A stretch of DNA of 42,098 nucleotides, from the NCBI GenBank assembly GCA_946619755.1, contig CAMOMI010000004.1, positions 1 to 42,098 on the forward strand. The letters run 5' to 3'. Of this stretch, positions 27,551 to 42,020 are shown piece after piece; position 1 is the stretch's first letter; every line of letters starts with the position of its first letter. The DNA is from an uncultured Clostridia bacterium (GTDB lineage: Bacteria; Bacillota_I; Bacilli_A; RF39; UBA660). Both the position numbers and the translations under genes were made by a program. Below the pieces are notes generated by a model. The model searched no databases and was not told the origin of the DNA. It saw nothing but the letters and a program-made list of their open reading frames with translations.

Positions 27551-27572
27551 CTATGACTTGTATTAGTCATGG
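27551..27572 (+). promoter_or_regulatory. putative L31 leader hairpin
   Basis: CTATGAC-ttgtatta-GTCATGG hairpin immediately 5' of the rpmE RBS. Confidence 0.4.
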
Positions 27573-27588
27573 CGAAAGGAGAAATAAT

Positions 27589-34821: not shown

Positions 34822-37044
34822 ATGTTTGATCTATTTAAAAAATTATTTTTTAAAGAACAGCAAGTAAACATTATTAATATTGGTGATCTTATAAGTATTC
34901 CTGGTAGAGCTTATTTCAAAGGTGATAATGATAAATTAAAACAAATAGATATTTACAAAGAAATATATTTTAATTTACTTACAGGCAAAAATCTTTTAAG
35001 TTCAAAAGAACTATCATTTGATAATTTAGAAAAAGAAATGTTAATGAATGTTGACCTAGTACTAAATCTAATAATGAACATAGATGATAATCAATCATTT
35101 GATGAACAAATATCTGAAGAATCATTATTAGAAGAAGATACTATGACATATATAAGTAACATAGAACTTACTAAATATAAAATATATATAAAAAAATTAA
35201 TGCTATATTTAGAAGATATGCTTAATATTGAAATTAAGAGTATCGAGATGTTGATAGCCTTAAAAGAACTTCAAAATAATAGAAAAATAAAAAAGACTAA
35301 TCAATTTGTCCTAAATCAAAAAATAAATCAATTGACTTTAATTATAATAACTATCCTAAAGCAAAAAAATGCTATTAATCAAGAGATAAAAAAACAAAAT
35401 ATTAACATTGAAAAATATTACAGAGTAAATGAGACATTTAATCAAAAATTATTAGTATACTTATATAAAAAAATATTTGATATATCATTAATATACATAC
35501 CAAGAGATAGACAAGAAAGTATTACTTCATCAAAATTAGATTTATATACTAAAATTGCATTGTTAGAGAAAGAATTAGAAATTTTTTGCTATATGCATAA
35601 AGAAGAAGTCATTACTATTAAATATGAATTAGCTAACTTAAGTCAAATATCAAAAGATGAAACAAACAAACAAACTATTCTAAGTAAATTAAGAATCATC
35701 GGTGATAAACTAACAATCTTTGATACATATGGTAGAAATATAGTAACTGAGGATATTTGGTATGAGTTTTATAAAGTTAAGTTTGATACCTTAACATGTA
35801 ATTTATTATCACTTAAAAAAGTACCATTTAATACAGCTTTTAATCATCAAGAAAAAGAATATAAAAATGAATATGATTTTTATAAAAAGATAATCATGAA
35901 TAAAATAAATAGTGTTGTAATGGGAAAGAATCATAATATTGAAAAAATATTTAAACAAGATACTAAAGAAGCTATTAGATTAATAAAAATTGTTCTAAGA
36001 GATGATGAAAATAAGTTTAATCCATTGGACATTCTTTTTGATAGATATAAATTAGCAATCTTATTATCTTTAGATACCGAAGACGGTTTAAGATGTTTTT
36101 ATGAAAAATATACAATAAAAACACTTCTTAATAAGTCTGTATTATCACCAGCCATTGATTTTTGTGATGAAGTACCACTTAAAACGATATATAAAATGCG
36201 CATTGCTCATGATTATTATCAGTATTTTCCTAGAATGCATGATGATGAACTATTTTATCTATATAAACTTTTAGAAAAACATACACCAGTCGATGATGAA
36301 TATTATTTTCCAGAAGGCATTACTACCATTGGAACTGCTATCAACACAGATTATTTTAGAAAGACCTTCGCTTATAATGTCATTAATTATGAAGCCACTA
36401 ATCGTATTGTAATTATGCCATCTACATTAAAAGTAATACGTAGCAATATTTTTCTAGATACTAAAATAAAAGGCATAGTTCTAAATGATGGCCTTAAAGA
36501 ATTATGGAATGGAGCTATTAATCTTCCAGGAATAAGAACGATAACTTTACCAGCTAGTCTGAATTACACAACAAATTTGTATATTCACCAATCACTCGAG
36601 GCAATTAGCTTTAAAGATTACAAGCATTCAGGCATTTTACACAATTATGAAGAATTATTTAAACTAATTAATGATATTTACCACGTTCACTTCTTTGGTA
36701 GTGAAAGAGGCATTGTTGTTGGACCTGATAAAGTTGAACTAGGAAATGATGATAAAATTAATGTATATCGCGAGTGCGCTAAAGTTCAAATATATACAAC
36801 GATTAAGCATCTTTTCTTTGAAGAAGATGGGAAAACTATTGGATGCATCTATGATTTACCATTATTATTCAAAACTAGATATGGCAAGTCTAAAACGTCA
36901 TCATACCTACATGAAGATGAAATAGCTGAAATAATTAGTATCTTAAAAGAAAAACTCAAAGAAACAACAGGCTATGATTTGGTCTTTAATGATTCTAAAG
37001 CAAAAAAGAAAAAACGATCTTATGGATTTCATAATTATTTTTAA
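34822..37044 (+). CDS. large hypothetical protein with C-terminal LRR_5-like segment
   Basis: 740-aa ORF; TNRIVIMPSTLKVIRSNIF...IKGIVLNDGLKELWNGAI...IRTITLPASL; promoter TTGACT-N17-TATCAT. Confidence 0.6.
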   Translation: MFDLFKKLFFKEQQVNIINIGDLISIPGRAYFKGDNDKLKQIDIYKEIYFNLLTGKNLLSSKELSFDNLEKEMLMNVDLVLNLIMNIDDNQSFDEQISEESLLEEDTMTYISNIELTKYKIYIKKLMLYLEDMLNIEIKSIEMLIALKELQNNRKIKKTNQFVLNQKINQLTLIIITILKQKNAINQEIKKQNINIEKYYRVNETFNQKLLVYLYKKIFDISLIYIPRDRQESITSSKLDLYTKIALLEKELEIFCYMHKEEVITIKYELANLSQISKDETNKQTILSKLRIIGDKLTIFDTYGRNIVTEDIWYEFYKVKFDTLTCNLLSLKKVPFNTAFNHQEKEYKNEYDFYKKIIMNKINSVVMGKNHNIEKIFKQDTKEAIRLIKIVLRDDENKFNPLDILFDRYKLAILLSLDTEDGLRCFYEKYTIKTLLNKSVLSPAIDFCDEVPLKTIYKMRIAHDYYQYFPRMHDDELFYLYKLLEKHTPVDDEYYFPEGITTIGTAINTDYFRKTFAYNVINYEATNRIVIMPSTLKVIRSNIFLDTKIKGIVLNDGLKELWNGAINLPGIRTITLPASLNYTTNLYIHQSLEAISFKDYKHSGILHNYEELFKLINDIYHVHFFGSERGIVVGPDKVELGNDDKINVYRECAKVQIYTTIKHLFFEEDGKTIGCIYDLPLLFKTRYGKSKTSSYLHEDEIAEIISILKEKLKETTGYDLVFNDSKAKKKKRSYGFHNYF

Positions 37045-39218: not shown

Positions 39219-39248
39219 AAAATATTAGAATTATCATTCTAATATTTT
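39219..39248 (-). terminator. terminator of the metallophosphoesterase operon
   Basis: AAAATATTAGAAT-tatc-ATTCTAATATTTT; T-run on the minus strand. Confidence 0.8.
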
Positions 39249-40251
39249 AAGCAACAATTTTAAGCTGTTTAACTTTATTTCTATCTTTACCAGCTTCATC
39301 CCAAAAGTCATTTTCTTTAAATAGTATTTCTTCAGGTTCAAAATATTGAATATTACCTTTACTATCAGACCAAATATTTAAAAAATAAGCTCCAACGGCA
39401 TTGGTAAGTCCTTGCTTCTGTTGAAATTGTGTTTTGCCACAAAAACAAGGTACCTCAATTCCTCTAATATTACGATAAACAAAAGAATAACTCTTATGGT
39501 AATGGCCTATTAATAATATTTTAGGTTTATAATTTGATTCAATTATTTCAATTCTTTTTTGTGCCTTATACGAAACAGATTGGGCTGAACCTCCACCAGG
39601 ATGATCCATAAAAATTTTGACACCATTAACATTTATAGATGCAAAATCTTGTCCTAAGTACTCCATATCAGGTCTACATCTACTTAACCATTGATTTACG
39701 GTTGCTTGTCCATTTTTATAATGAGTTTCATCATGACTACCAAGAATATATTTCGTTGTTACCCCTTCAACATATGGATACATATCAACAACATAACCAA
39801 CTTGTTCATCAAACCCATGTAAGAATTGCTGTCTTGGCTGTTCAGGCCTATTTAAATAATTACCATCGACGACATCGCCAACATGAAGTACTAGCGTAAT
39901 ACCGCGATTATATGCCTCTTCATATACCTTATTAAGTAAATGCAATTGTTGATGAATATTACCAAAATGGGTATCCGATACTACCAAAATTTCAGTATGT
40001 ATCAACTCATCCATTGTAATTCCTGGCTTAGCAGTAATAATGTTTCTAGCAAAAGTCTTTTCAAATACTAAAACATTATTTTTAACAACTGCTTCGACAT
40101 TTTTTCCATATACCCTGCATAATTCAAGTAGTCCATTAAGCTCTTTGTAATTTATATGAAATTTCTTCATAAAATCTTCAACTGAAGCTCCATTTTTCAT
40201 ATATTTATATATTCTATCAACATATTCAATACTCATATCTATACTACTCAT
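39247..40251 (-). CDS. metallophosphoesterase with N-terminal HTH-like region
   Basis: VVSDTHFG, LHVGDVVDG, LGSHDE, FMDHPGG, LIGHYHKS: all five calcineurin-like motifs. Confidence 0.85.
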   Translation of the reverse strand: MSSIDMSIEYVDRIYKYMKNGASVEDFMKKFHINYKELNGLLELCRVYGKNVEAVVKNNVLVFEKTFARNIITAKPGITMDELIHTEILVVSDTHFGNIHQQLHLLNKVYEEAYNRGITLVLHVGDVVDGNYLNRPEQPRQQFLHGFDEQVGYVVDMYPYVEGVTTKYILGSHDETHYKNGQATVNQWLSRCRPDMEYLGQDFASINVNGVKIFMDHPGGGSAQSVSYKAQKRIEIIESNYKPKILLIGHYHKSYSFVYRNIRGIEVPCFCGKTQFQQKQGLTNAVGAYFLNIWSDSKGNIQYFEPEEILFKENDFWDEAGKDRNKVKQLKIVA

Positions 40252-40264
40252 TTTATCACCCCTA

Positions 40265-41242
40265 TTATTTAGTTATTTTTAAAACTTTGCGTTTCGTATA
40301 ATCATCTTTATTTGTCTTATAGTAAACCGAATCAATTGCTCTAATGCTAAGTAAATTACCATATTTATCAGTAGTAACCGTTATATACCAAGCTCCAACT
40401 GTATTAGAATATCTCTTATCACTCATTTCTTTAGTAGTTGCACAAACGCTAGGAACTGAAATACATTTAACACTACGATAAGTCATTTTTTCCATTTGAA
40501 GTAATCCACCATATAAAAGAATATCGGGTTTATCTTCACTTCTAAAAGAATCTACCTGTTGTTGAGGTCTATAAGATACAGTATATGTTTTTTCTAGTTT
40601 TGGACTAAATACTAACATATTTACCTTATCAATCATAACATTACAAGAAGTATGTCCAAGATATATCATATCTTTTCTAATATCGCTAATTCTTTTTCCA
40701 ATATTAATTTTGTTTCTTTTTAAATGCTTTTCATCTCTAGTACCTGTAATAAAATAAGTTCTCATTCCCTCAATATATGGAAAATATTGAGTAATATAAT
40801 CAACTTGTTCTAAAGAATCTGCTAAAAAATTAGTATCTGAATAAGCATTGTCAACAGGAAACAATCCTTCAGAAATATTTCCACATAAAATAACATTTCT
40901 AAAGCCCATTTCAAAAGCTTTTAAATATATATCATTAAGTATCGTTAATTGTTGATACTTAGATCCAAGACGTGTATCAGAAATAGCTACAAACTTAAAT
41001 TCATTTCTTTCATCTGTATAAAATTGATAACTATTATCTTTATTTAATTCTCTTTCTCCATGATTAAATAAATATATATCATCATCTTTTTTCTGTATCC
41101 CAATATTAATACCTTCTTTTCTTAATTCTCTTAATAGTCCTAATACTTCATATCCTCCAAGTTCAAGTAAACGACACACTTCAGATAAACTAATCTCTTT
41201 TTCTGTCAAATTTTTAATACTTTCTAATAAATCATTATTCAT
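40265..41242 (-). CDS. degenerate metallophosphoesterase paralog (predicted pseudoenzyme)
   Basis: Collinear with 39247..40251 but motifs read ISDTRLG, LCGNISEG, TGTRDE, VFSPKL, LYGGLLQM; ATG at 41242 after GGAGG. Confidence 0.75.
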   Translation of the reverse strand: MNNDLLESIKNLTEKEISLSEVCRLLELGGYEVLGLLRELRKEGINIGIQKKDDDIYLFNHGERELNKDNSYQFYTDERNEFKFVAISDTRLGSKYQQLTILNDIYLKAFEMGFRNVILCGNISEGLFPVDNAYSDTNFLADSLEQVDYITQYFPYIEGMRTYFITGTRDEKHLKRNKINIGKRISDIRKDMIYLGHTSCNVMIDKVNMLVFSPKLEKTYTVSYRPQQQVDSFRSEDKPDILLYGGLLQMEKMTYRSVKCISVPSVCATTKEMSDKRYSNTVGAWYITVTTDKYGNLLSIRAIDSVYYKTNKDDYTKRKVLKITK

Positions 41243-41257
41243 AAAGCCTCCAAAAAA

Positions 41258-41280
41258 AGAGCACAAAAAAATTGCGCTCT
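41258..41280 (-). terminator. leader terminator/attenuator upstream of the metallophosphoesterase pair
   Basis: Minus-strand RNA AGAGCGCAA-UUUUU-UUGUGCUCU (9 bp incl. one G.U) then U7, directly followed by RBS GGAGG. Confidence 0.65.
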
Positions 41281-41334
41281 CTAATTATTTAAAGTAGTAA
41301 TAAGAATTAAACATTTAAAACAACATTTATTCAT
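41281..41334 (-). CDS. putative 17-aa leader peptide MNKCCFKCLILITTLNN
   Basis: ATG with GGGAG 7 nt upstream; TAG immediately precedes the attenuator hairpin. Confidence 0.5.
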   Translation of the reverse strand: MNKCCFKCLILITTLNN

Positions 41335-41357
41335 ATCACCACTCCCTATCATAATAA

Positions 41358-41386
41358 AATATATCAAAAAATACTCTTAAAGTCAA
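41358..41386 (-). promoter_or_regulatory. sigma-A-type promoter for the leader peptide/metallophosphoesterase transcript
   Basis: Minus-strand TTGACT-N17-TATATT. Confidence 0.55.
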
Positions 41387-41474
41387 CCCAAAAATAATCT
41401 ATAAAACTATAAAACAATAATGTATTTTTTAATCTTAAATGATATAATATAATTATTAAAAAGTGGAGGTAATT

Positions 41475-42020
41475 ATGCAGTACATTAAAGATAAAACTAA
41501 TTATGAAATAATTATTCTTAATAATCAATTCGATATAGTATCTAAATTATATTTTGTACCAAGCTATTTTGTTTGGACTTTTTCATATCAAATTACTAAA
41601 GAAAATCCAATTATCTTATCTAAAGAAGATGATAATATTTTCTATGAAAACTTAGAATGGTTAATGCATGAGTCATATAGTTTTCCTCATAACTATAGTC
41701 ATAAAACTCCTGATAAATTAATTTGGTTATCCGAACATTGCTTCAATCTACAAGATGAATATGAGTTAGACATAACACCCCGTCTAATAATAGAGAAAAA
41801 AGAAGACAAATTTCATATTTATTTTGAAAAGCCTTTTACAAATAAATACAATCTTCCAAATAATGGTGCTTCAATATCATTTGCTCCAGCTGGGAATGGT
41901 TTTTTAAGCAAAAATAATAGCGCTGGTACAACATTTCAGGATGATTTGATAACAGTTTTCTATTATACCTTAAATAATCAAAAAATAAACAATAATAAAA
42001 TAAAAAAGAAAAAAGCATAA
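41475..42020 (+). CDS. hypothetical protein
   Basis: ATG at 41475 after GGAGG; 181 aa, no recognised domain. Confidence 0.6.
   Translation: MQYIKDKTNYEIIILNNQFDIVSKLYFVPSYFVWTFSYQITKENPIILSKEDDNIFYENLEWLMHESYSFPHNYSHKTPDKLIWLSEHCFNLQDEYELDITPRLIIEKKEDKFHIYFEKPFTNKYNLPNNGASISFAPAGNGFLSKNNSAGTTFQDDLITVFYYTLNNQKINNNKIKKKKA

Follow-up and report, generated by a model that had tools for sequence, protein, structure and literature searches.

Why should a bacterium keep, next to a metallophosphoesterase that has most of its active-site residues, a second copy in which nearly all of them have been replaced? The question is raised by two neighbouring genes, here called A and B, in the 42,098-nucleotide stretch of DNA from an uncultured Clostridia bacterium that was analysed as a whole and is referred to as the window. 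The answer that we favour, with a probability of about 0.65, is that A and B constitute a paired live and dead enzyme under the control of an attenuator, an estimate in which a nuclease substrate is not included. The two open reading frames, already recognized in the preliminary description of this DNA, were confirmed on the minus strand, where the order is promoter-like site, 17-codon leader ORF, terminator-like hairpin, B and A:

39247..40251, minus strand: gene A, putative catalytic winged-helix metallophosphoesterase of 334 aa (Pfam match, 7/8 DP1-type active-site residues)
40252..40264, minus strand: B-A junction with a AGGGGTGAT-like ribosome-binding site for A (sequence, spacing in relatives)
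40265..41242, minus strand: gene B, degenerate paralogue of 325 aa, a putative pseudoenzyme (homology to A, signature, dN/dS, model)
41247..41251, minus strand: ribosome-binding site of B, GGAGG (sequence)
41252..41280, minus strand: terminator-like hairpin with a 9-bp stem, a 5-nt loop and a U-tract, directly before the ribosome-binding site of B
41281..41334, minus strand: leader uORF of 17 codons (MNKCCFKCLILITTLNN), its stop adjoining the hairpin
41335..41348, minus strand: extended Shine-Dalgarno sequence of the uORF (TAGGGAGTGGTGAT), which can pair with the 3' half of the uORF
41358..41386, minus strand: promoter-like site of the B-A transcript, TTGACT-17-TATATT, with TG before the second hexamer (consensus match)

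The start of B is the ATG at 41242; an alternative, longer TTG start (41266) falls within the terminator-like hairpin. Since a BLAST comparison of A with B gave 31% over 221 aa and a profile-profile comparison aligned them over 323 columns with a probability of 100, the two proteins are judged from their sequences to be homologous over their whole length, N-terminal region included, and the end-to-end alignment noticed earlier is borne out. In the predicted models, both begin with a helix-turn-helix region with a beta hairpin, which we read as a winged helix, followed by the phosphoesterase domain; an HTH_Mga match was also found in the B half of a fused B-A protein (L079).

The eight active-site residues listed for PolD DP1, namely D360, H362, D404, N450, H451, H497, H560 and H562 (PMC10721889), were taken as the reference active site. 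On re-reading of the sequences, the motifs first reported for the two proteins proved correct, these being DTH, GDVVDG, GSHDE, DHPGG and GHYHKS in A, and DTR, GNISEG, GTRDE, FSPKL and GGLLQM in B. The window's A retains seven of the eight DP1-type residues, with Asn replaced by Ser at residue 172, so that its designation as intact holds for the motifs otherwise but not for this one metal ligand. At this position, where the GNHD/E motif normally has Asn, 75 of the 80 A copies have Ser and 5 have Asn, compared with Asn in 18 and Asp in 6 of 24 single-copy relatives; seven residues are present in 74/80 A copies and all eight in 5/80, and the single-copy homologues have eight (18/24) or seven (6/24). 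In two A copies (L007 in G011 and L115 in G086), motifs III and IV are separated by an additional insert relative to other A copies, with the motif letters mostly retained. In Pfam searches, A scored above the curated cut-offs with Metallophos_2 (PF12850, 2.8e-9, 37.6 bits, cut-off 27) and Metallophos (PF00149, 9.2e-9, 36.4 bits, cut-off 21.5), as expected for a calcineurin-like metallophosphoesterase, and B gave no match.

The window's B has lost seven of the eight canonical residues and kept one, in agreement with the initial observation that nearly all its metal ligands are gone. Among 82 B copies, 67 have none or one of the eight, and the motif-I His is missing in every copy that covers that position. 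Because deeper B copies (e.g. L008, L081, L104, L105, L107, L141-L143) retain parts of motifs II, IV and V, the loss of ligands probably went stepwise. Most B copies have in common the signature D-x-R, G-N, GxxDxxH, TYTxSY, RSEDKP and GG-LQM, with Arg, Asn, Lys/Thr, Ser/Asn, Gly and Leu at the former ligand sites; no alternative metal ligands are evident in B, and the replacing residues do not appear to rebuild a two-metal site. The structural model of B (P0002, pLDDT 84) shows a phosphoesterase fold matching DP1, Vps29, MJ0936 and LpxH, so that B has the calcineurin-like fold but neither the metal ligands nor the catalytic His, and it is very probably devoid of phosphoesterase activity.

A scan of loci in one genome per species rendered 55 with A, one of which (L080) ends at a contig end and was left out of the 54 testable ones. 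In 54/54 of these, a count that overstates the evidence because it comes from related, non-independent sequences, B either immediately precedes A in the same orientation or forms the N-terminal part of a fusion with it; absence or frameshift of B in relatives, which the preliminary description regarded as an argument against a maintained pair, is thus not what was found. Both proteins are fused into one chain of ca. 590-743 residues at 15 of the 54 loci, and in the split pairs of relatives the stop of B and the start of A overlap or lie at most 19 nt apart, a spacing that suggests translational coupling. The natural fusions favour the heteromer proposed earlier, and in all likelihood B and A act together in this form. 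(Rows L032 and L042 of alignment A3, which read through the stop codon of B, were used for modelling only.) In the family of the window, as counted from a table and fetched stretches, 51 of 388 genomes match; 46 of the 51 have the pair, which is fused in 26, and the remaining five have single-copy homologues, no lone B being found among the 51. The distribution, across dozens of uncultured gut bacteria, is therefore patchy, and the function of the pair is not a core one.

In a tree built by a quick method, all A copies form one group (SH-aLRT 92) and all B copies another (SH-aLRT 100), with the single-copy homologues outside both, and because A and B are each one group they would have arisen by one duplication. 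Two of the single-copy homologues (L147 and L149, in G148 and G113) have a full set of ligands, belong to the window's own family and score near both A and B; it is possible that they stand in for the state before the duplication. The distances among A and among B copies are correlated (0.96; maximum in permutations, 0.33), and the A tree requires a minimum of seven switches between the fused and the split state. The dN/dS values obtained with the Nei-Gojobori method (own script; several dS near saturation) were 0.01-0.31 for B, close to those of A (0.01-0.30), which indicates that B is under purifying selection, and neutral evolution of B, another outcome contemplated at the outset, is not observed. 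Pairing, dN/dS, tree and distance correlation agree in presenting B as a dead paralogue that is kept with a live one. A single B copy, that of L006 (G032:C3:22405-23367), has an in-frame TAA (105 + 229 aa), next to an intact A; decay, recoding or a sequencing error could account for it.

What A cleaves is a separate matter. The top PDB fold match of both models is DP1, followed by MJ0936, LpxH, Mre11/SbcD, Vps29 and the Pol epsilon B-subunit, with Rv0805 also among the matches, and a sequence search of the PDB with the A profile matched DP1 (E 0.0014) and MJ0936 only. A is nevertheless not a member of the PolD DP1 family, with 29.5 bits against a profile cut-off of 445, and no SbcD model appears among its NCBIfam matches; the one SbcD-like match, to a phage family, is weak (0.011). 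The model of the fused B-A protein has a pTM of 0.64 and an unreliable interface. A and the single-copy relatives alike match phage exonuclease families, and we give even odds to A being a nuclease, that is, a phosphodiesterase acting on nucleic acid in the manner of DP1 or Mre11. Because the fold similarity around the metal site extends to LpxH, Vps29 and cyclic-nucleotide enzymes, the fold does not fix the substrate.

It could also be the case, with a smaller but not negligible chance, that A cleaves a small nucleotide or another phosphodiester, that B is a ligand-sensing subunit using the old active-site pocket, and that a neighbouring nucleotidase of the HAD/NT5C type takes the product. 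An HAD/NT5C-like gene is indeed found directly upstream on the same strand at ca. 23 loci (e.g. L034:3208-3852 and L071:1585-2088), the genes falling into two divergent clusters with weak mutual similarity; LpxH, the phosphodiesterase MJ0936 and Rv0805 are among the fold matches, and the pocket-motif positions of B are strongly conserved. However, both halves retain the winged helix, DP1 leads the fold matches and the sequence matches of the A profile, the single-copy relatives match phage exonuclease families, and no HAD gene was found beside the window's pair. The surroundings are otherwise not conserved across loci, the most widespread neighbour cluster besides the pair being present at 13 loci only, and a link with pcrA, whose co-localization had been mentioned as possibly meaningful, was rejected, pcrA being a chance neighbour. 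In the window, two further ORFs near the pair (34822-37044, plus strand, 740 aa; 41463-42020, plus strand, 185 aa) have no Pfam match, and the L31-Firmicutes ribosomal protein leader at 27551-27581, plus strand (Rfam RF03156), is an ordinary element.

The single-copy homologues L116-L118, from outside the family, sit among genes whose translations read as NrdG-, dUTPase- and HNH-like. Because of this context and the phage exonuclease matches of the single-copy homologues, a phage origin is likely, not proven. Phages themselves rendered one distant single-copy homologue, in Halorubrum virus BLv36, and carriage of the pair by plasmids was not found.

The region preceding B has the layout of a short ORF with a ribosome-binding site that ends at a terminator before the gene. 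The window's leader folds with z = -6.8, and its promoter-like site is a consensus match in a region where the count of such sites is no higher than in shuffles. Hairpins with a U-tract ending at most 45 nt from the start occur in 39/52 pair leaders, compared with 23/241 other genes; when a uORF that ends there is required as well, the counts are 32/52 compared with 2/241. Both the start and the stop positions of the uORF are conserved, the peptide is not, and pairing between the uORF ribosome-binding site and the 3' half of the uORF is favoured (mean z -1.9, 31 leaders); RNAalifold gave no consensus structure on the gappy leader alignment. The sequence TAGGRAGTGRT was rejected as a new element and is read as an extended Shine-Dalgarno sequence, since it recurs without the uORF and terminator.

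These features make it likely that the leader uORF acts as an attenuator. A less interesting explanation is that the hairpin before B is only the terminator of the upstream gene, the uORF being accidental. Intergenic terminators are common, and at some loci the gene upstream is indeed encoded on the strand of the pair, but the window has a divergent upstream gene, and its leader follows a promoter-like site. Moreover, 34/50 B genes have a hairpin that ends 12-24 nt ahead of the start, as do 3/248 others (three pair genes listed there left out), and, besides the comparison of uORFs given above, the uORF ends at the hairpin in 31 of the 38 leaders that have one, against a mean of 1.6 and a maximum of 5 in shuffles; the explanation is accordingly improbable.

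The complete layout also occurs before one short RelA/SpoT-like gene, in the relative G030 (L178/L190), where a uORF, MSKIILFIIVASTTCIQ, ends at a hairpin. Terminator-like hairpins were detected before the start of other short RSH genes as well, by script in L191, L192, L196 and L201 and by eye in L197-L200. The short genes of L178/L190 and L191-L201 encode ca. 480-515 aa and have the hairpin just before the ribosome-binding site; none of the full-length Rel genes examined was found to be preceded by such a hairpin. A uORF-terminator leader common to the pair and the short RSH genes is a lead, not a result.

In the mechanism that we propose, catalytic A and its dead paralogue B would form one obligate heteromer, which would go back to one duplication of a single-copy phosphoesterase with a winged helix, similar to those encoded in phage-like loci. 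A would cut nucleic acid as a DP1/Mre11-like phosphodiesterase, and B, the structural, nucleic-acid-binding half, would have replaced one of the two subunits of an ancestral homodimer, so that the heteromer has only one active site; the conserved Asp-x-Arg of B may replace the metals. Expression of B-A would probably be set by ribosome-mediated transcription attenuation: since the uORF ends at the terminator just before B, a ribosome paused near the uORF end would block the terminator, and B-A would be made. Translation stress is a tentative candidate for the inducer, at somewhat below even odds. The complete proposal, a translation-stress-induced live/dead nuclease domesticated from a phage-type enzyme, with a switch common to the short RelA/SpoT-like enzymes of the same bacteria, is speculative and has perhaps one chance in four.

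Adjacency of the genes, synthesis of B first, patchy distribution and tight control would also be expected of a toxin-antitoxin-like pair in which B restrains a harmful nuclease A as its inhibitor, but one-chain fusions in many lineages, the paralogy of B and A, their co-inheritance with matching trees and the lack of a PADLOC match make this quite unlikely; an anti-phage defence system was rejected for want of a PADLOC model match. That B is a functionless, decaying duplicate, to which its lost ligands and the in-frame stop in one distant copy might point, is dismissed almost entirely by its constant pairing, low dN/dS, full length, in-frame fusions to A and own conserved residues, which support the maintained live/dead pair favoured from the beginning over a decaying pseudogene.

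Among known systems, Mre11/SbcD shares with A the superfamily and the metal-ligand pattern and is among the fold matches, but the neighbour clusters identified for the pair include no recurrent Rad50/SbcC-type gene. Mre11 works with two active copies, unlike a live/dead pair. Archaeal PolD DP1 resembles A in phosphoesterase fold and active-site residues, and the eukaryotic polymerase B-subunits are descendants that lost the nuclease residues (PMC6355029), as B did. A and B have, however, a winged helix where DP1 has an OB domain, no polymerase partner was noticed, and active and dead copies stand here side by side in one genome, often in one chain. CPSF73/CPSF100 and INTS11/INTS9 likewise consist of an active nuclease and a paralogue without metal ligands (PMC7980224); they differ in their unrelated metallo-beta-lactamase (MBL/beta-CASP) fold, in being separate chains in the published complexes, and in serving eukaryotic RNA 3'-end processing. 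As to the leader, a short ORF with a downstream RNA structure is found in hflXr of Listeria, where a terminator precedes the gene (PMC6310831), and in toiL-topAI of E. coli (PMC12121999). The layout of ribosome-mediated attenuation in hflXr is that of the pair leader, which by analogy might work alike; toiL differs, since it works via translation and Rho, with no intrinsic terminator. Unlike both, the pair leader has no visible RLR-type arrest motif and no conserved leader peptide, its uORF stop codon itself adjoins the hairpin, and a phosphoesterase pair would be under control.

We therefore regard A and B as the live and the dead member of an enzyme pair within a bacterial family of winged-helix phosphoesterases; the heteromer, the substrate and the inducer are inferred. 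No description of such a bacterial pair was found in the literature searched, queries for pseudoenzymes with phosphoesterases included; what was already known are eukaryotic live/dead nuclease pairs (CPSF73/100, INTS11/9) and phosphoesterases lacking catalysis in polymerase B-subunits. Here, a single-copy active enzyme, its duplication, stepwise loss of ligands, co-inheritance and repeated fusion would be seen in one bacterial family and one tree, and because the whole evolutionary course is visible there, the purpose of a dead subunit becomes directly testable in a bacterial pair. The conserved attenuator-like leader, in turn, offers a way to learn under which conditions the machine is required.
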